Positions 3,426-35,327 of a stretch of DNA of 47,779 nt are shown here, one piece after another (position 1 is the first letter of the stretch; each line of letters begins with the position of its first letter). The translations under genes were made by a program, and so were the position numbers. This DNA is from a virus. The stretch is taken from IMG/VR virus record IMGVR_UViG_3300046471_000223, positions 1 through 47,779 of that record, one strand, 5' to 3'. The notes under the pieces were generated by a model. It ran no database searches. It was not told where the DNA came from and was given only the letters and a program-made list of their open reading frames with translations.

Positions 3426-3785
3426 TTAAGTCAGGCTTTCCAGCTTTTGCTCGACACGCTGATCGACCAGATCGGCGATACGGAATGTCTCTTCGCTGGA
3501 GTAGTGCGGGTTGCATTCAGAGCAGTGACCGGCGACTTCAATCTCTGCCGCAAGCTGCATTAGCATCTGATCTCGCAAGCACGACGGGCACTGAACGGCC
3601 TCTTCCGATCTCGCCTTGACCACGCCAATGCAGCATTTCGTCGCGTCTTCTTTTTCGCTGTGGAAGTCGGCGCATATGTCGCAGGACCAGCCCTGATCAA
3701 TGTCACGCTGGCAGCAACGCTCAGCGTCGTGGTGAAACTCGTGAACCTCGTAGCAAGCACCGCACTGATAGGCTCTTGTCGGCAT
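3426..3785 (-). CDS. 119-residue multi-CxxC zinc-ribbon protein
   Basis: The start at 3785 has GGAGG seven bases upstream. The product carries four cysteine pairs in order: CGAC (residue 8 on), a CC pair at about 24, CDIC, CPSC and a final CSEC, plus histidines, so it is probably two or more treble-clef or ribbon zinc sites. It is the first leftward gene met by a transcript from pL, about 900 bases downstream, which is where lambda has N and other regulators. A regulatory role is inference. Confidence 0.7.
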   Translation of the reverse strand: MPTRAYQCGACYEVHEFHHDAERCCQRDIDQGWSCDICADFHSEKEDATKCCIGVVKARSEEAVQCPSCLRDQMLMQLAAEIEVAGHCSECNPHYSSEETFRIADLVDQRVEQKLESLT

Positions 3786-3861
3786 ACGTCGCCCTCCGTT
3801 CAATATGGCGCCAGGCGTGCGCCGCTGATAATCTCGACCACCTCAACAAGAGGCGAATGCC

Positions 3862-4362
3862 ATGGATTTGAAGAACCTTGCCGTCCTGCAGCAACTACGT
3901 GACAGCATGAAAGACAAGGCTGCGATAGACCCATCAGGTACGCCGCGGGCCATTGCGTGGTTAAAGGTTCTTGCCCAGTCTTTATCGGGGCCAGAGCCCC
4001 GTAAATCGTCAAAGCCAAAGAAGCGCAAGCCCGCCGCGTCAAAAACTGCAGCACCGAAGCCGGTCATGACGGCGACCACAGTTATCAGCCACAAGAAGAA
4101 ACGAAAACAGGATGCCGACGCGCAGAAACTCAGATCCAGACTGCTTTTGGATAAGTCCTTAGCCGCCAAGTACCGTGATTGCCGTGAGTGCGGCAGGCTT
4201 GTCCATATCGGAGAGGACATCCCGCTATACCCAGTTCGATGTGAACGCTGTCGGAAAAGAGATGGCCAGATCGACCTAGGAATAAAGGCCAATAAAAGCA
4301 ATCAATTTTCTGAAATAACAGTCCTACCTGGTGGTGCTCCCGGACTCGGTAAGCGCAAATAA
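3862..4362 (+). CDS. 166-residue lysine-rich protein with zinc ribbon, opposite strand
   Basis: An AGAGG site precedes the ATG. Residues 1-40 are helical; 45-95 are a disordered, strongly basic linker (KSSKPKKRKPAASKTAAPKP, later KKKRKQ); residues 105-130 hold CREC and CERC, one likely zinc ribbon. The gene runs against the early leftward operon, so a transcript from pL would be antisense to all of it. That suggests expression in the lysogen rather than in lytic growth, or control by antisense. A nucleic-acid-binding role is inferred from charge and zinc ribbon. Confidence 0.65.
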   Translation: MDLKNLAVLQQLRDSMKDKAAIDPSGTPRAIAWLKVLAQSLSGPEPRKSSKPKKRKPAASKTAAPKPVMTATTVISHKKKRKQDADAQKLRSRLLLDKSLAAKYRDCRECGRLVHIGEDIPLYPVRCERCRKRDGQIDLGIKANKSNQFSEITVLPGGAPGLGKRK

Positions 4363-5220: not shown

Positions 5221-5244
5221 AGGCCCTAAATAGGGCCTTTTTTT
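5221..5244. terminator. bidirectional hairpin between the last two lysogenic genes
   Basis: AGGCCCTA and TAGGGCCT pair around two bases, with a T run on the plus strand and a moderately T-rich stretch (CTCTTCTT) on the minus strand. It follows directly the stop of the 311-residue gene and may partly uncouple the last gene of the operon. Confidence 0.6.
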
Positions 5245-6178
5245 AATCAGTTATCAGCTTGTATGTGGAAGATTCTTTTTCTGTAATTTCGTCTCTAGAT
5301 GTATATTTCAGAGCTTTCAAAGATACGTGCATACCAAGCGAGTACTGCTGAGCATAATTGTATTGTTGTTTGTTGTATTCAATCTTGATCTTATAGCCAT
5401 CGTCGACCCTTAATATGATCGAGCCTGAATCATTCAGTACAGCTACCTTCCCAGCTAGCGAAACCGCCTCGGGCTTTATTTTGCTAACAATTGACAGTCG
5501 CTGCCTAGCGAGCCGAACGCTGTCTAATGTGCCGCCCCATTTGTGTACCGAGGAATCAGGAGATGGCCAAGTCAATTCGGCGCCTATGTCTCGCTTCTCA
5601 AGCTCCTTCAATAGATCACAGAGCTCTCTCGTAGCACGTATACCTATCGTGGATACAAGCTCCTTCACCTGTTCGGGAGATTGCTCCATTAATAGGCTAA
5701 ATATTTTCTCTAGGGCGCTTTCAAGAACGATGTCCCCAGTTGCATCAGGCGATAAACTCCCAGCAAAGAGTAGCCGGGTTGAACCGGGCGCTAGGCTAGA
5801 TAATCGAATATCAAGTTCATCAGATAACTCATCTGGTATCCCTCGCTCAGGATCAATGCCGTACCGTAAATGGAACGCGGCAAATCCGATAGCGCTGTGG
5901 AACTTGTTGGAAACCATAGTCAGTAACCGAAGCGGTATACTTCCGTCCAATCTCCATCCAGTAAGACGAAGTTCTATAACTTCCTTCTTTAGCGATTCCT
6001 TCGCAACTCTCAGGTCTTGAAGTAATTCATCTCGCTGACTTTCCCAAGACGACAAAGCAATCCTGATAGAGAAATCTCCAGGTGCTTTCTCTAGGCTGGC
6101 CTTATCACGAGCGACAAATGCCTTCACCTGAGCAAGCTGGCGCTCCAGCCAGTCAATTCTTTTCTCTTGCTCTGTCAT
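5243..6178 (-). CDS. 311-residue partner of the nucleotidyltransferase; candidate lysogenic exclusion protein
   Basis: The ATG overlaps the stop of the nucleotidyltransferase gene (ATGA), so the two are translated together. Residues 1-75 form a charged coiled coil (EQEKRIDWLERQLAQVK). Residues 80-240 are a mixed alpha/beta domain with GSIPLRLL, LDIRLSSLAPGSTRLLFAG and a helical part (VKELVSTIGIRATRELCDLL). Residues 240-311 are a beta-rich C-terminal domain (LAGKVAVLNDSG, ILRVDDGYKIKIEY). There are no membrane segments. I know of no function for this family. GC content looks lower than in the phage backbone. Position after cI suggests constitutive expression in the lysogen, as for lambda rexA/rexB. 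Confidence 0.7.
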   Translation of the reverse strand: MTEQEKRIDWLERQLAQVKAFVARDKASLEKAPGDFSIRIALSSWESQRDELLQDLRVAKESLKKEVIELRLTGWRLDGSIPLRLLTMVSNKFHSAIGFAAFHLRYGIDPERGIPDELSDELDIRLSSLAPGSTRLLFAGSLSPDATGDIVLESALEKIFSLLMEQSPEQVKELVSTIGIRATRELCDLLKELEKRDIGAELTWPSPDSSVHKWGGTLDSVRLARQRLSIVSKIKPEAVSLAGKVAVLNDSGSIILRVDDGYKIKIEYNKQQYNYAQQYSLGMHVSLKALKYTSRDEITEKESSTYKLITD

Positions 6179-6636
6179 GGTTTCAGCCTCAGTAGTGCTA
6201 GGCCCTTGGGAGTAATCTCGTCTCGCTGAGTTCCAAACTTTTGAAACCAGAAGGCCTTGCCCTCTGCGTCGTCGCTCGGCACTGCATGCACGTCGAGCTT
6301 GAAGCGAGCTTTTGCGTAGGCGGTGGTGAGGAGGTTGTTCACGGCATTCCAGGTAGATTCGGTTAGATCCCGAACGCACGAAGGATCGTAAATTACCAGC
6401 AGGTCTATATCGTCGGGATCGTGCTTCTGGCACATAAATGAGCCATCAATCCACATCTCCGCCTGTAGACCGTGCTGCTCCAAAAGCCCGACATAAATGT
6501 CGAAAAGCTCGAAAAGCATGGCCCTGCGCTTTGAATCAGGAAACCCATCTACAGCTAGACTTCTCAAGCTGCTGAGTGAGTGTTCGTGAATGCCCTCGCC
6601 CAGCAGCGGCGGAAAATCAGCTTTGATTAGGTTCAT
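6175..6636 (-). CDS. nucleotidyltransferase-fold protein (DUF6932-like)
   Basis: This 153-residue protein carries the nucleotidyltransferase signature: GSF at residues 65-67, a DDID pair at 75-78 and a third acidic strand (KLDVHAV, Asp about 115). That matches the G[GS]...[DE]h[DE]h pattern of MNT/DNA polymerase beta-fold enzymes, and the catalytic residues look intact. It overlaps the end of cI by 20 bases and the start of its 311-residue partner by four. Enzymes of this fold act as antitoxins, toxins or second-messenger makers in defence systems; which applies here is unknown. Confidence 0.75.
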
Positions 6637-7045
6637 CAGTCTGCAGCAGCAGCTCCATGGCCCGTTTCAGTCTCAGCGCCTGAGCTTCGGAGATGCCAAG
6701 CATCTTGTCGGCAATCTCGTCCACCGCCTGGCGGTGAGCTGGCGCTGCTTCTTCGTACTTTTGCTGCTGATATGTGCGTGAAGAATCGCCACCTAAAGGA
6801 GGGCGCGATGATCCATCGCCGGCTGCATTGCGGGATGGGGCGAGCATCTCGCCGACACCTTCCGCGAGCCAAATAGCTGAGACACCGCAGGCAGCAGCAA
6901 GCTGCGCGGTGTAGGCGGTTGCTTTGGATTTGCCTCTCTCAAGGTCTGAAATCGACGTTTGATTGATTCCGACCTTTTCGGCGAGAGCGATCTGTCCAAG
7001 CTTCGAATGACGTCTTGCGGCCTTTAGCCGGTCTTTGAATTCCAT
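6617..7045 (-). CDS. cI: CI-type prophage repressor without a peptidase domain
   Basis: Residues 1-70 are an XRE-family helix-turn-helix ([20 protein letters not shown], then [16 protein letters not shown], then [16 protein letters not shown]). The remaining 70 residues are a linker and one amphipathic helix region ([20 protein letters not shown]). At 142 residues it is about 90 short of LexA/CI repressors, and there is no S24 cleavage site or Ser/Lys dyad. It probably dimerises through the C-terminal helices and cannot be cleaved through RecA. The start at 7045 coincides with the predicted pRM transcription start, so the message may be leaderless as in lambda. Confidence 0.85.
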
Positions 7046-7052
7046 GCTCCGA

Positions 7053-7081
7053 GTATTACGGGTACGCCCATACCCTTGCAA
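7053..7081 (-). promoter_or_regulatory. pRM promoter (repressor maintenance)
   Basis: On the minus strand: TTGCAA (7081-7076), 17 bases, TAATAC (7058-7053). Transcription would start at 7045 or 7046, exactly at the cI start codon, and no leader or ribosome-binding site at proper spacing is present. The -35 hexamer TTGCAA is its own reverse complement and is also the -35 of pR. Confidence 0.7.
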
Positions 7082-7120
7082 ATCGGTATTCCCATAATCT
7101 AGTATATGGGTATTCCCGTA
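7057..7120. promoter_or_regulatory. OR: three CI/Cro operators
   Basis: Three 16-base sites: TACGGGTACGCCCATA (7057-7072), AATCGGTATTCCCATA (7081-7096) and TATGGGTATTCCCGTA (7105-7120). Their centres (7064.5, 7088.5, 7112.5) are exactly 24 bases apart. The first lies inside pRM, the second fills the pR spacer, and the third covers the pR -10 edge and start. This is the lambda OR logic with a different repressor. Confidence 0.85.
7076..7105 (+). promoter_or_regulatory. pR promoter (early rightward)
   Basis: TTGCAA (7076-7081), an 18-base spacer and TAGTAT (7100-7105). It is divergent from pRM and overlapped by two operators. Transcription would start near 7112, about 20 bases before the cro start codon. 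Confidence 0.7.
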
Positions 7121-7132
7121 TGGAGGGGCAGC

Positions 7133-7348
7133 ATGAACACTATTTTCAAGGACCTCGTTGCCTTCTTCGGCACACAGGAGGCCACCGCTGAAAAGCTCAA
7201 AGTTGACCAAAGTACCGTTTCCGGCTGGGTGCGTGAGAAGCACGGTATGTCTCCAGTTATTGCCAAGCGGGCTGAGGCACTGACTGAAGGCGTCTTCAAA
7301 AAAGAATCCCTATGTCCGTCGTTCCCTTGGGCCGAGATGGCCGCTTAG
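7133..7348 (+). CDS. cro: Cro-like repressor (YdaS-type helix-turn-helix)
   Basis: GGAGGGG lies six bases before the ATG at 7133. The 71-residue product is one helix-turn-helix domain: [20 protein letters not shown] forms the two helices and turn, followed by the recognition part ([10 protein letters not shown]) and [15 protein letters not shown]. It fits the YdaS/Cro family in length. As the first gene from pR, divergent from cI, it should shut off pRM and later pR and pL by binding the same operators. Confidence 0.85.
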
Positions 7349-7473
7349 CGCCAGACGTCCCTGTCTGCGTATCCATTGAGCGAATGATCGCTCCGCAGAT
7401 GGCGGAACGCCACGTAACAAATCTGGAGACATTACATGCAAGCCTTGATGAGAGCGATTTACGACGTAGTTGA
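7312..7473 (+). CDS. 53-residue overlapping small frame between cro and cII
   Basis: An ATG-started frame ([20 protein letters not shown]) that overlaps the end of cro by 37 bases and the start of the CII-like gene by 38. It has no clear ribosome-binding site. It could be a coupling peptide, or simply an open frame over the candidate nutR site. Confidence 0.28.
   Translation: MSVVPLGRDGRLAPDVPVCVSIERMIAPQMAERHVTNLETLHASLDESDLRRS
7341..7367 (+). promoter_or_regulatory. candidate nutR between cro and the CII-like gene
   Basis: CGCTTAGCG (a partial boxA) is followed at 7352-7367 by a five-base-pair hairpin CAGAC-GTCCCT-GTCTG, the size of a boxB. The place just after cro is where lambda nutR lies. 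The boxA match is imperfect, so this is weaker than the site in the pL leader. Confidence 0.3.
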
Positions 7474-7861
7474 CGAGGTTGGCACCAAGACCTTGGCGGA
7501 GGGGGCGAGCTTCACGTCTCGGACGCTTCTTTCCCAGAAGGCCAACCCGGACTACGAAAGCCACAACATGAACGTGCCAGAGCTGCACCGGATCATGAAG
7601 TTCACCCAAGACTTTCGTCCGCTGATTGCCTGGGCTGATTCATTCGGCTTCGACCTGGTGGCCCGCCAACGCCCGGCACCAAAACCACTCATGACCGCGC
7701 TTTGCCACCTGACCGCTGAATGCGGTGATGTCGGCCGCCTGATCTTCGATGCCACTGCTGACAACCACATCAGCCAGCACGAAAAGGCGCAGGGCGACAA
7801 AGCAATTCAAGAAGCCATCGACGCTCTGCACGTTCTGCGTGAATCGCTGAAGGCTGCCTGA
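7436..7861 (+). CDS. CII-family phage regulatory protein (Phage_CP76-like)
   Basis: The 141-residue protein begins MQALMRAIYDVVDEVGTKTL, then SFTSRTLLSQKANPDYESHN (the turn and recognition helix of this family), MNVPELHRIMKFTQDFRPLI and a helical C terminus (KAIQEAIDALHVLRESLKAA). This matches the Phage_CP76/CII-like regulators in length and layout. GGAG is nine bases upstream of the ATG. As the second gene from pR it should activate lysogenic promoters, by analogy with lambda CII. Confidence 0.7.
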   Translation: MQALMRAIYDVVDEVGTKTLAEGASFTSRTLLSQKANPDYESHNMNVPELHRIMKFTQDFRPLIAWADSFGFDLVARQRPAPKPLMTALCHLTAECGDVGRLIFDATADNHISQHEKAQGDKAIQEAIDALHVLRESLKAA

Positions 7862-12069: not shown

Positions 12070-12329
12070 GTCATCAATTCAAGGCTGGTGATTTGGCTCT
12101 GACGCTAATCGATGATCCGGACATGCCTATCGGGTCGTGTGTCGAGTTGGTGAAACCAATTGCCCAGGGAGAGATGCTTGAATTTGCGGCGTTTGTCGCT
12201 CCGTCTCCGGGATGGTACGTCACCAATGCCAGCTGTTACCGAAACGTCGCTTATGGCGATCATGAGTTGATGCCCCGGCGCGGCGACTTCACCCCCGAGC
12301 AAACCAACTCACGCGAGGTGACCGCATGA
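12066..12329 (+). CDS. 87-residue hypothetical protein (KOW-like beta barrel)
   Basis: The product begins MSHQFKAGDLALTLIDDPDM and continues with short strands (SCVELVKPIAQGEML, GWYVTNAS), which reads as a small SH3-like beta barrel. The gene overlaps ninB by four bases. Similar small barrel proteins occur in nin-like regions; no exact function can be given. Confidence 0.55.
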   Translation: MSHQFKAGDLALTLIDDPDMPIGSCVELVKPIAQGEMLEFAAFVAPSPGWYVTNASCYRNVAYGDHELMPRRGDFTPEQTNSREVTA

Positions 12330-12436
12330 AGACCATCAAGGCCCTCATCCGGGTCGCCTCATGCTTCGCCTCAATGATGGAGTGCGCAGCTCTTGAGCCT
12401 TCGACAGTGAGCTTCCAGTGTGGAGGTGGGGTGTGA
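12326..12436 (+). CDS. 36-residue hypothetical peptide
   Basis: It overlaps both neighbours by four bases. The sequence MKTIKALIRVASCFASMMEC has a basic start and moderately hydrophobic helix with cysteines, perhaps a weak signal or lipoprotein-like segment. No ribosome-binding site is needed if it is translationally coupled. Support is context only. Confidence 0.4.
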   Translation: MKTIKALIRVASCFASMMECAALEPSTVSFQCGGGV

Positions 12437-31272: not shown

Positions 31273-32022
31273 ATGCCGTTAATCAGCGATCTCCAGGTTC
31301 TTGAGCCTGGGAGCGAAGTGTTGCTGTTCGAGCTGGACGGCTCGGATTACGGCGCGGATATCCTGCGCTTTCACGGGCATTCGATCCCATACACGTCTGC
31401 TGAATTGCTGGTGGCTGGCGTGAACGCTGATCAGCTGCCCGCAAAGGCTATCTGGTGGCAGGGCGAGGAATATGGCGCGTGGCCGGTCCAGATTGAGGGC
31501 GTTGAGGCGAACGGCGACGGCACGGCGGTGCGGCCGACGCTTTCCGTGGGGAACGTTGGCGGCCGCATTACGGCGCTATGCCTGGCGTTCGAAGACCTCC
31601 TGGAATTCAAGATGACCATGCGGCACACACTTGGTCGATATCTTGACGCGGTGAACTTCGAAGGCGGCAATACCGAGGCCGATCCCACCCAGGAATCGAT
31701 TGAAGTCTGGTATCTCGACCAGAAGACGAACGAGGACGGTGAAAACGTTTCCTGGGAACTGGCCAGCCCCGGCGACGTCGGCGGCGAGTCTATTGGTCGC
31801 CAGATGACCACGCTGTGTCACTGGTGCCTCACCGGTGGGTACCGCGGGCCGAACTGTGGCTACACCGGCGGATACGTCGACAAGGACGGTCTGCCCACGG
31901 ACAACCCTGAACTCGACGAATGCGACGCGACCCTTGGCCGTGGTTGCGAGCCGCGCTTTGGCGCAAACAACGAACTGCCCTTTGGCGGATTCCCCGCCGT
32001 CTCTCTCATCGCTCGGAGCTGA
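31273..32022 (+). CDS. L: minor tail protein L (cysteine-rich, Fe-S type)
   Basis: A 249-residue protein with the L-family start (ISDLQVLEPGSEVLLFELDG), a middle with LEFKMTMRHTLGRYLDAVNF, and a C-terminal cluster CHWCLTGGYRGPNCGYTG followed by two more cysteines (DECDATLGRGCEPRFG). Lambda gpL binds a 4Fe-4S cluster through such cysteines. It joins M, K and J at the tail tip. Confidence 0.85.
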   Translation: MPLISDLQVLEPGSEVLLFELDGSDYGADILRFHGHSIPYTSAELLVAGVNADQLPAKAIWWQGEEYGAWPVQIEGVEANGDGTAVRPTLSVGNVGGRITALCLAFEDLLEFKMTMRHTLGRYLDAVNFEGGNTEADPTQESIEVWYLDQKTNEDGENVSWELASPGDVGGESIGRQMTTLCHWCLTGGYRGPNCGYTGGYVDKDGLPTDNPELDECDATLGRGCEPRFGANNELPFGGFPAVSLIARS

Positions 32023-32024
32023 TC

Positions 32025-32783
32025 ATGCTCAAGTACATCCTGGAAGCGGTGCACAAGCACGCGGCGGCGGAATACCCGCGTGAGTGCTGCGGGCTTCTGC
32101 TGGCTGTCGGCCGGAAGCAGCAGTATCACCCCTGCACCAATATTGCCACCGACCCCACCGAAGAGTTTCGGATCGACCCCGAGGATTACGGGCGTGCCGA
32201 AGATGTCGGCGAGGTGATCGGCATCGTTCACTCGCACCCTGACGCCACAAGCAGGCCGTCACCACGCGATCTGGCAATGTGCGAAGCGACCGAGCTGCCT
32301 TGGCACATTCTTAGCTGGCCGGAAGGCGACCTCAGAACCATCACTCCCACCGGCAACACCCCGCTACTCAAGCGTCCGTTCGTACACGGAGCATGGGATT
32401 GCTGGCAGGTCTGCGCCGATTGGTACAAGGGCGAGTGGGGGCTGGAGTTCGAGGCCTTCCAGCGCGAGGATGGCTGGTGGGAGCAAGCCGATGGCCCGAG
32501 CCTCTACGAGCAGGCTTACGAAGCGGCTGGGTTCGAGTGCGTGGGCACTCCACAGCGCGGCGACATGATTGTCATGGACGTCGGCCGAACAAGGCATCCG
32601 AACCATGCAGGAATTTACCTGGGCACCGATGCGGCGCTGCCGGGCGAGGAGGGCGGCGTGCGCGGGCCAGGTCCATTCATGCTGCACCACATGTACGGGC
32701 GGCCTTCAGAGATCATTGTCTTCGGTGGGCCTTGGCTGAACCGAACACGCCTGATCCTCAGGCACAAAGACGCAAAGCAGTGA
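32025..32783 (+). CDS. K: tail tip assembly protein K (JAMM peptidase + NlpC/P60)
   Basis: Two enzymatic domains. Residues 1-95 form a JAB1/MPN domain with Glu20 (PRECCG), HSHP at 69-72 and a Ser/Asp in SPRD (79-82), so the JAMM zinc site is complete. Residues 115-225 are an NlpC/P60 domain with Cys126 (AWDCWQVC), His194 (HPNHAGIYLG) and a following polar residue. Like lambda K, it probably processes J or cuts peptidoglycan during assembly or entry. Length 252 residues is as expected. Confidence 0.85.
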   Translation: MLKYILEAVHKHAAAEYPRECCGLLLAVGRKQQYHPCTNIATDPTEEFRIDPEDYGRAEDVGEVIGIVHSHPDATSRPSPRDLAMCEATELPWHILSWPEGDLRTITPTGNTPLLKRPFVHGAWDCWQVCADWYKGEWGLEFEAFQREDGWWEQADGPSLYEQAYEAAGFECVGTPQRGDMIVMDVGRTRHPNHAGIYLGTDAALPGEEGGVRGPGPFMLHHMYGRPSEIIVFGGPWLNRTRLILRHKDAKQ

Positions 32784-32808: not shown

Positions 32809-33033
32809 ATGGACCGGCAGCAAGTCGAGAATCTTGAGATGCGGCTGACATGTATCGAAAACCAGCTTACGCACATTCTCTGCCTCCTACGGGGCGGAAA
32901 ATCAGATGGCCTTGCAGCTCACGCGTCTACTAGAAAATCAACCGATGATGCCGCTCCGTTAGGGGCGGCAATAACGCGCATAACCACTAGACGGACGCTC
33001 AACCCAAGTAGAGGCGATAAATATCTTTCTTAA
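32809..33033 (+). CDS. 74-residue small protein with N-terminal coiled coil
   Basis: GGGGGAAG precedes the ATG. The N terminus (MDRQQVENLEMRLTCIENQL) is a perfect heptad-like helix, then a disordered tail (STRKSTDDAAPLG). Its end overlaps the start region of the minus-strand protease gene by 35 bases. It may be a remnant at the edge of the inserted minus-strand block. Confidence 0.45.
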   Translation: MDRQQVENLEMRLTCIENQLTHILCLLRGGKSDGLAAHASTRKSTDDAAPLGAAITRITTRRTLNPSRGDKYLS

Positions 33034-33475
33034 AATCCATGATCAGGACGCCGCACTCGATTAAATGCATTCCTATGAGTAAGTGCTCAGTAGCGGGGCT
33101 ATTGCGCAGAGGTGCTGAAAATATCTGAGTTTCAAGCTGTGCAGCCGCTTCAGGGAAGAATAGGTGACCTAGATATCGCGCGCTTTCTGTTGCCTCCGCA
33201 GTTGCCCCATGAGTCACGCCGGTGCCCGTATGGGGACATCCTGCAGCCACTATCGCATCAGGCGTCGCGTAGTTTTGATCTGCGCCCGTGTCTAGCAGGG
33301 CGTAGATAGGCCGGTAACTCAGAGGCTCTCGGGGGCCATTTGAATGTTCTGGGTCGTATCTCAATACCACTCGCACAACCGGTCGGCCTGGTGGATGATC
33401 TGAGACGCTGCCATCTTCCCCCATGAATCTTATAGGCGAGTATTTGAATCCATCCGGCGCTGAGCATCCACTCAC
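32999..33475 (-). CDS. retropepsin-like aspartic protease
   Basis: A GTG start with a perfect GGAGGT five bases upstream. The 158-residue protein contains YRPIYALLDTGADQNYATPD: the hydrophobic-hydrophobic-D-T-G-A active site (Asp62) of retroviral-type aspartyl proteases. A matching flap and the second conserved strand at about 131-138 (HLLIGMHLI, in place of IIG.D.L) follow. Like retropepsins it has only one DTG and should work as a dimer. It is encoded against the tail operon and in AT-richer DNA, so it is cargo. Its substrate is unknown. Confidence 0.75.
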   Translation of the reverse strand: MSGCSAPDGFKYSPIRFMGEDGSVSDHPPGRPVVRVVLRYDPEHSNGPREPLSYRPIYALLDTGADQNYATPDAIVAAGCPHTGTGVTHGATAEATESARYLGHLFFPEAAAQLETQIFSAPLRNSPATEHLLIGMHLIECGVLIMDFKKDIYRLYLG

Positions 33476-33550
33476 TTTGACCTCCTAGTCGTGTTACCCC
33501 GGTCCATTGGCTGTTAGGCAACGGACGTTAGGTTTGTCTTCACAATTTTG

Positions 33551-34138
33551 TTAATTATTCGGCTCAGTCGCTTTGAGAAGATCAGATGCCCGCCTAGTGA
33601 AGTGGAATATGCGTTCGCCTTTTTGATTGTGGTCAATATTAAGCAGACCTAAGCTTACGAGCTGACGAAGGTCGTCTTCAATAAACCTAGGTTCATCAGC
33701 GGCCCATCCTCCAGACGCGTCCAATGAGTGAAACTCTGTCCTCCGCATGAGTTTCAGCTCGAGTAACTTCCCGGATCCGCTTGATTCGTAAAAGCGCAAC
33801 AAATCCAAAGCTTGTTTGGACAACAAAGAATTAGGGCTAGTGCTAGCAGCGAGAGATTCAAACCCCTCCACTGAGCTTGCGAATCCCGCGAGGGCAGATT
33901 CAATTCTGGCTAGCCTTTCGACAAAGTCAGAGCGTTGAGTATTTAGGAGAGCTTTGATACTCACTGTTGTGCCAAGGTTGGCTTCGATCGCGGCTTTGAG
34001 TTCGTCCTGCCCCGATTGTATTAGCCATATGAGAAACCGGTCAAAATCCTTCCCCGACGCTGCATCTCGGCTCGATTTGTATTGACCAATCAGGCCAACC
34101 AAAGTCGCTAAAGTACCTGCACCGGTTAACGGGTCCAT
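33551..34138 (-). CDS. 195-residue cargo protein of unknown function
   Basis: GGAG lies six bases before the ATG at 34138. Residues 1-25 are mildly hydrophobic (GAGTLATLVGLIGQYKSSRD), 30-100 are helices (FLIWLIQSGQDELKAAIEAN, FVERLARIESALAGFASSVE), and 115-195 look like a winged-helix domain (LSKQALDLLRFYESSGSGKL, DDLRQLVSLGLLNIDHNQKG, IFHFTRRASDLLKA). I do not recognise the family. It lies upstream of the protease gene on the same strand, 75 bases apart, and the two may form one operon. A dyad ACGGT...ACCGT at 34164-34185 lies in front. Confidence 0.65.
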   Translation of the reverse strand: MDPLTGAGTLATLVGLIGQYKSSRDAASGKDFDRFLIWLIQSGQDELKAAIEANLGTTVSIKALLNTQRSDFVERLARIESALAGFASSVEGFESLAASTSPNSLLSKQALDLLRFYESSGSGKLLELKLMRRTEFHSLDASGGWAADEPRFIEDDLRQLVSLGLLNIDHNQKGERIFHFTRRASDLLKATEPNN

Positions 34139-34271
34139 TCGTTGCTCCAATTAATGTCCATAAACGGTACGCTACTACGCACCGTCTCATTCCCGTTACT
34201 GGCCTTTTGTCCACACTGGATGCCCAGCCAGTGGCCTGCTACATTGCCGGCTTCATCAATGAGGGATCAGC

Positions 34272-34694
34272 ATGCGAGTTTTGTTAGGAACGCTGGCAGT
34301 TGCTCTGCTGGCTGGGTGTGCTTCAACTGCGATACCTGTAAACCAAGCGGATCCGGTTCCTGCTGATGAGTTGTATGCTTATCAGACGAAGCCCAAGGGC
34401 GATAGCGGGAAACTAACGGTAGTCCGAGACGCTGGCATGGTGGGTTCGGGTTGCGACATCGTTGTCTATATCGATGGTCGTAGGGCTGCGAAGATTGGCA
34501 CGTCGCAAAGAGCTTCGTTTTTTCTACCGGCCGGCACCGCCAATATTGGCGCGGGTCTCGCTGGGTCGGGCCTGTGCGCAGGAGCTGCAATCCGAACGAT
34601 TTCAGCAAATGTTTCAAATGGAAAGGAAAGTCTTTATCGGATTAGCGGCGACATGAGCGGATTTTTTATAGGCCCTTACGTCGACTATCAGTAG
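34272..34694 (+). CDS. prophage lipoprotein
   Basis: The 140-residue product has a lipoprotein signal (MRVLLGTLAVALLAGCAS, lipobox LLAGC with Cys16) and a beta-rich mature part: GKLTVVRDAGMVGSGCDIVV, YIDGRRAAKIGTSQRASFFL and PAGTANIGAG. This is the layout of DUF2846-like envelope lipoproteins. A terminator directly follows, so it can be an independent transcript diverging from the minus-strand pair. Lambda-like phages carry lipoproteins such as Bor or Cor here; surface change or exclusion is a plausible role. Confidence 0.7.
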   Translation: MRVLLGTLAVALLAGCASTAIPVNQADPVPADELYAYQTKPKGDSGKLTVVRDAGMVGSGCDIVVYIDGRRAAKIGTSQRASFFLPAGTANIGAGLAGSGLCAGAAIRTISANVSNGKESLYRISGDMSGFFIGPYVDYQ

Positions 34695-34745: not shown

Positions 34746-35327
34746 ATGCAACCCATGACTGTGATCAAGCTATCAGGATCGTTGGCATCAAAGTTCGGGC
34801 GGACCCACTACCGGCTGCTTGATTCTGGGCAGGCTTGGGAAGCCTTCAAGGCACTAAAGGCGACACTGGCTGGCTTTGCCGAAGAAATCAAAAGGCTTGA
34901 TGGGTTGGGCATGCGCTTTGCCATTTTCCGCAATAGGAAGAACGTGGGTGAGAAGGAGTTCGAGCTGGGAGGGACCTCTGAGCTGCGCATTGTTCCCGTC
35001 ATCGAAGGAAGCAAGCGAGGCGGTGTGCTTCAAACGATTGTTGGCGTAGTGCTTATAGTCGCCGGTGTCATTCTATCGGCAACGCCTTTTGGCGCTCCTT
35101 TGGTTGCGGCTGGTATTGGTCTGGTCGCTGGCGGCGTCATCCAAATGTTAAGCCCGCAATCGTCAGGCCTGAAACAGAGCGCCTCGCCCGAAAACCTACC
35201 GTCATACGCCTTCGGCAGTGCCCGAAATACCACGGCTAGCGGTAACCCGGTGCCGATTTGCATCGGAAAGCGGCGTTGGGGCGGCGCAATTATCTCGGCA
35301 TCGATCTTGGCCGAAGACAAAACCTGA
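34746..35327 (+). CDS. I: tail assembly protein I
   Basis: A 193-residue protein of the lambda I family: MTVIKLSGSLASKFGRTHYR at the start, a glycine-rich hydrophobic segment (LQTIVGVVLIVAGVILSATP and LVAAGIGLVAGGVIQMLSPQ, about 98-138), and the family end YAFGSARNTTASGNPVPICI followed by GKRRWGG. In lambda it is needed for tail tip assembly with J, K and L but is not in the virion. Confidence 0.85.
   Translation: MQPMTVIKLSGSLASKFGRTHYRLLDSGQAWEAFKALKATLAGFAEEIKRLDGLGMRFAIFRNRKNVGEKEFELGGTSELRIVPVIEGSKRGGVLQTIVGVVLIVAGVILSATPFGAPLVAAGIGLVAGGVIQMLSPQSSGLKQSASPENLPSYAFGSARNTTASGNPVPICIGKRRWGGAIISASILAEDKT

Follow-up and report, generated by a model that had tools for sequence, protein, structure and literature searches.

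A retropepsin-like protein encoded against the tail operon of a temperate phage: a probable accessory gene behind a shared leader

The 47,779 bp IMG/VR virus record analysed here (the window) carries a lambda-like structural operon on its plus strand. Between the tail K and tail I genes of this operon the minus strand codes a protein that is, by its motifs and predicted fold, a single-domain retropepsin-like protein (clan AA, A2-type). It is probably an accessory retropepsin whose gene lies in an antisense moron cassette, behind a leader that other phages place in front of unrelated genes. Judged from the comparison of many loci, this leader and its unrelated cargo form a modular accessory-gene (moron) cassette system, and the modular leader is a more unexpected part of the finding than the protease itself.

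The window has a temperate control region with genes for an HTH_3 repressor (6617-7243, minus strand) and for CII (7436-7861, plus strand). The annotated phages closest to its tail region are Pseudomonas phages, for example phiAH14a, from which we infer a Pseudomonas-type host. The E. coli genomes searched gave no DNA match, and no Rfam match was obtained anywhere in the window. A 396-aa ORF in low-GC DNA adjoins the repressor gene (5243-6433, minus strand); its residues 86-395 match the PADLOC candidate-defence family PDC-M63B (9e-171), and a Pfam search with it gave no match. Two minus-strand genes separate tail K, which ends at 32783, from the lipoprotein gene starting at 34272, which is followed by tail I at 34746. 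The features of this region are:

31920-32783, plus strand: tail K-like gene (JAB and NlpC/P60), the left border of the cargo gap
32950-32969, no strand assigned: GC-rich inverted repeat that folds, between the converging ends of the tail K and protease genes
32999-33475, minus strand: retropepsin-like aspartic protease gene, 158 aa with a GTG start, identified by profile, predicted structure, dN/dS and relatives
33290-33292, minus strand: GAC codon of the predicted catalytic Asp62 (LLDTGAD), within a DTGA found in 28 of 28 distinct relatives
33476-33526, minus strand: second half of the leader, a hairpin (about 33497-33526) and ribosome site directly before the protease gene
33480-33485, minus strand: ribosome-binding site GGAGGT, 4 nt before the GTG
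33551-34138, minus strand: first gene of the antisense unit, coding a 195-aa protein with relatives that occur without the protease
34165-34223, minus strand: first half of the leader, with the promoter-like boxes CCAGTA and TAGTAGC (pattern at 34173-34202)
34272-34694, plus strand: lipoprotein gene (phrog_890), the right border of the cargo gap
34746-35327, plus strand: tail assembly I gene (phrog_32)

The inverted repeat at 32950-32969 is a possible transcript end; it has no T-run and the terminator scan gave no match there. A plus-strand ORF (32809-33033, 74 aa) overlaps the end of the protease gene and has relatives in the same place in two other loci (L003 and L004).

A sequence-only reading of this DNA had proposed a retropepsin-like protease on the minus strand, and the elements it named were all found. 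The ORF at 32999-33475 is on the minus strand, the ALLDTGADQNYATPD motif is present with Asp62, and the matching late-strand motif is LLIG at residues 132-135. The ribosome site reads AGGAGGT in full, and the DNA is AT-richer, with a GC content of 53.0% in the protease gene and 48.8% in its neighbour, compared to 62.7% in tail K and 57.6% in the window. LLDTGA fits the retropepsin active-site pattern hydrophobic-hydrophobic-D-[TS]-G-[AST] and LLIG the hydrophobic-hydrophobic-Gly motif, whose G135 is invariant in a 16-sequence alignment. A GAT is found in the flap region at residues 90-92.

The window protein alone scores 13.5 bits with Asp_protease_2, under the Pfam cut-off of 24.3, and a sequence search of the PDB gave no match for it. 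Its relative L278 just passes the PF13650 cut-off (25.0 versus 24.3). Asp_protease_2 is matched by 11 of 16 relatives (best 6e-7) and gag-asp_proteas by 10 of 16 family members. A profile built from the 16 relatives matches yeast Ddi1 over the whole retropepsin domain (E 0.003), and the 23 PDB matches that this family profile gave up to E 5 are without exception Ddi1-type or retroviral proteases. AlphaFold2 predicted the single chain with a pLDDT of 85 and a pTM of 0.81. The best Foldseek match of this model was 5c9f, the Rickettsia APRc (E 2.8e-4); VIA-align superposed the two with Z 10.6 over 117 residues at 2.8 Å and gave Z 9.5-10.6 against the EIAV, FIV and HIV-1 proteases. The profile search and the predicted structure thus support the retropepsin fold that had been claimed, with a single lobe in the AlphaFold2, Foldseek and VIA-align results. 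APRc (RC1339) of Rickettsia conorii likewise combines a single-domain retropepsin fold with the motifs [MLI][VIL]DTGA and hydrophobic-hydrophobic-Gly, but its gene is chromosomal and its predicted location is within the membrane (PMC4140852), whereas the window protease is soluble and phage-borne and shares 18% identity with it over the aligned part. The 40 N-terminal residues of the window protein reach a maximal 15-residue hydropathy of 0.2; since there is no hydrophobic N-terminus, the protease is probably cytoplasmic. It is also a putative homodimer, probably with one Asp62 contributed by each subunit, an arrangement that, like its activity, is predicted from the fold. That this ORF is a functioning gene and not a chance ORF is indicated by the 28 distinct relatives found, all of which keep [LIV]DTGA, by a dN/dS of 0.07-0.18 (twelve usable pairs) and by the confidently predicted fold. 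These ratios point to strong purifying selection on the protein.

An alignment of upstream DNA revealed that phages with distant proteases have a common sequence before the start codon. This leader is made of CCAGTA, a spacer, TAGTAGC, a hairpin (CCcgGTCC...GGACtGGG) and sometimes a second hairpin; after these there is often GACCTaGGAGGTC and then the start codon. In the window the leader is split in two by the gene for the 195-aa protein, and the segment directly before the protease gene (33476-33526), which folds as a hairpin, was aligned with 39 leaders of other phages. A scan with the hairpin pattern found at least 120 stretches of IMG/VR DNA, and the loci fetched hold 142 leader instances in 115 distinct contexts; because the pattern was fixed in the scan, the apparent invariance of the leader is partly by construction. 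At the two hairpin pairs that the search pattern did not prescribe, most variants, though not all, can still pair; the rest of the stem was set by the pattern and is uninformative. The first genes behind the hairpin belong to at least 26 unrelated families; with 9 instances, the retropepsins are among the larger of these. Most instances of the leader lie between the lipoprotein or tail I gene and tail K. All 126 instances that have a recognisable tail gene close by are antisense to it, and 139 of 142 carry a ribosome site.

Boxes and a codirectional upstream gene hardly ever occur together: 58 instances have only the boxes, 60 only the upstream gene, 3 have both and 21 neither. Put otherwise, 58 of 61 instances with boxes lack an upstream same-direction gene and 60 of 81 instances without boxes follow one. 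This distribution indicates an operon layout of boxes followed by successive hairpin-gene modules, each gene with its own ribosome site. The spacer between the boxes is unconserved and of nearly fixed length, with two classes that are one base apart. Fixed spacing around a free middle makes the boxes look like a promoter; no fit to the sigma-70 promoter consensus was found at them. We also considered that the leader might code a conserved small peptide on the plus strand (YY...RYW), and rejected this because the middle is unconserved and the one-base shift of the box distance between phages breaks the frame. A comparable case is the SAS/ESAS repeat of cluster K mycobacteriophages, which stands immediately ahead of the starts of many unrelated genes and in part has inverted repeats (PMC3203893). 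Copies of the SAS are spread across a single genome next to non-structural genes, whereas the leader described here occurs mainly in the tail K-I gap, is antisense and combines promoter-like boxes with a hairpin.

The K-I gap of Pseudomonas-type lambda-like phages (L083-L162; 32784-34271 in the window) is hypervariable, ranging from 21 to 4162 bp among 94 loci. Its cargo includes many small helical proteins without known function behind the one shared leader, and most cargo families found behind the leader have no known function assigned. The product of one cargo gene, in L204 (hairpin at about 12309-12340, plus strand), is a nuclease of the NucS_C/PDDEXK type that includes a DUF7669 domain and has strong matches to PADLOC candidate-defence models. 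PADLOC gave no match for the window protease; its model PDC-M08B is weakly matched by 3 of the 16 relatives (best E 0.0036). With so few matches, and with most cargo families of no known function, the connection to defence is weak. The antisense K-I cargo of L277 and L126 carries R-x(4)-H stretches (RNEVAHW and RHKIVHW) that are suggestive of HEPN-type ribonucleases, a candidate assignment that Pfam does not recognise in the L277 protein.

Lysogens often express antisense accessory (moron) loci that have promoters of their own (PMC7067206). The window resembles known prophage morons in carrying accessory genes against the late operon, for which expression during lysogeny is expected; it differs from them in that many unrelated morons share one leader and in that the expression is predicted. 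Position and leader are the grounds for the moron reading. The protease gene and its neighbour at 33551 would form a moron unit inserted antisense between tail K and tail I and read from the shared leader, that is, from its boxes, with a hairpin and a strong ribosome site preceding the protease gene. As the unit stands against the late operon and has its own leader, the protease is most likely made in the lysogen and not for virion building. Its target there would be a specific protein of the cytoplasm. This context makes the lysogenic conversion or anti-phage role that had been proposed plausible. The likeliest purpose, which we put forward tentatively, is anti-phage: the protease may cut a phage or host protein when another phage superinfects the cell, and so impede that phage. 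This purpose is favoured by the company of the other cargo and by the lack of a fixed host-pathway neighbour.

A serious rival, second in likelihood and doubtful on the evidence at hand, is lysogenic conversion without any anti-phage role, in which the protease would cut or regulate a host protein and so change a host trait. The characterised retropepsin-like dimeric aspartic proteases of Pseudomonas, RimB and Rlo, do act on host physiology (PMC11957791, PMC12239564), and moron loci affect diverse host traits (PMC7067206). However, the window protease has no profile link to RimB and Rlo, which are not known from phages; the profile search gave no RimB-like family among its Pfam or NCBIfam matches. 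Its N-terminal hydropathy gives no signal peptide, unlike the secreted Rlo enzymes, and its gene is linked to phage cargo, not to host pathway genes.

The start of the first gene is more likely the ATG at 34138 than the TTG at 34150, as GGAG lies upstream and the MDPLT... start is shared with relatives. Its 195-aa product belongs to no Pfam, NCBIfam or PADLOC family, and its structure prediction (pLDDT 50) is too poor for use. That the two genes form one operon, as had been suggested, fits the window, where the boxes lie upstream of the gene at 33551 and a hairpin and ribosome site directly precede the protease gene, the second of this two-gene antisense unit. The two genes do not, however, recur as a fixed pair. 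In L134 similar boxes precede a relative of the first gene (71%), and the gene that comes after the same hairpin is a different one, while L066 has the first gene alone and no retropepsin in its record. Other retropepsins have other neighbours, or none. A two-component system, for example a sensor and a protease, would agree with the window, where two adjoining genes of one strand follow a single leader, but is improbable given this lack of a fixed pairing. Since the first gene is separable, the two genes are co-carried in the window and are not a system; an obligate pair was rejected on the same grounds.

In bacteria the gene is rare, as the sequence-only reading stated, but in phages, for which this does not hold, it recurs. 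INPHARED phages gave no protein relative of the protease or of the gene at 33551, and genome contigs gave one clear relative (a Pluralibacter prophage) and one weak one, while weak matches were obtained in 6 other gammaproteobacterial genomes (E 2e-8 to 5e-4). The protease gene is antisense to the structural genes in every relative with identifiable flanking structural genes, which extends the claim of an accessory gene carried against the tail operon to many phages. The insertion sites are:

tail K-I gap: the window and many other loci
between tail chaperone and tape measure: L002
beside the major tail protein: L009 and L012, where orientation was ambiguous by simple ORF count and was settled from the annotated tail genes
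between M and L: Enterobacter, L006 and L020
between I and J: L019 and Pluralibacter L074
away from the tail: Enterobacter plasmid L005

The proteases of L002 and L003 are 99% identical and their leaders 88% identical over 142 bp, and the two lie in different gaps; this makes the unit a mobile one and not a structural gene. Adjoining the L002 retropepsin, a gene on the tail-gene strand (3775-4107, minus strand) has a partial match to phrog_1039, 'immunity to superinfection' (3e-20). A scan made with tail I, and thus blind to cargo, gave 73 loci with a readable K-I gap, of which 4 (L099, L107, L122 and L152) hold a retropepsin. As expected of a moron, the gene is thus lacking in most phages with the same structural genes, in a gap of variable content. 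Relatives on the Enterobacter phage-plasmids NZ_CP091500 and NZ_CP083846, annotated 'retropepsin-like aspartic protease', have 31% identity and are also antisense to structural genes; they differ from the window in insertion site and upstream leader. A different inverted repeat, ATTCAGCC...GGCTGAAT, precedes the enteric-phage retropepsins of L021, L029, L030, L042, L049 and L065. It is conserved with a varying inner sequence and may be an analogous leader.

This distribution bears on two readings that we consider very improbable. Retroviral proteases mature virions, and the place of the gene within the tail operon would agree with a morphogenesis protease that matures a head or tail protein; this was rejected on strand, distribution and mobility, as the gene is antisense to all structural genes, occurs in just those 4 of the 73 loci that share these tail genes, and has its near-identical copies in different gaps of different phages. 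The antisense transcript, and not the protein, might instead matter by tuning tail gene expression, in line with the position antisense to the late genes and with prophage BTP1, whose antisense RNA excludes superinfection (PMC7067206), but the strong purifying selection on the protein, the active site intact in all relatives and the near-invariable ribosome sites behind the leader argue against it.

The accessory protease in an antisense moron cassette thus stays the preferred reading. A wider proposal, which we regard as unlikely as a whole, is that the K-I gap of Pseudomonas-type lambda-like phages is an exchangeable site for antisense cassettes, that the standard leader expresses a varying set of genes protecting the lysogen, and that single-domain retropepsins, proteases of the retroviral type, are one recurrent anti-phage weapon among them.

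To our knowledge few bacterial retropepsins have a known job. The literature searched, which covered few subscription papers and no preprints, contained nothing relevant on retropepsins of phages or prophages or on aspartyl proteases with an anti-phage role, no retropepsin with an assigned job in a phage, and no earlier account of a leader common to Pseudomonas morons. What retropepsins do outside retroviruses can be tested on this family, which is compact and phage-borne, keeps its active site intact, is under strong purifying selection and has a repeatable genomic setting. The shared leader, for its part, provides a sequence handle by which dozens of uncharacterised moron genes of Pseudomonas phages can be collected and tested at once, superinfection-exclusion and defence candidates among them.
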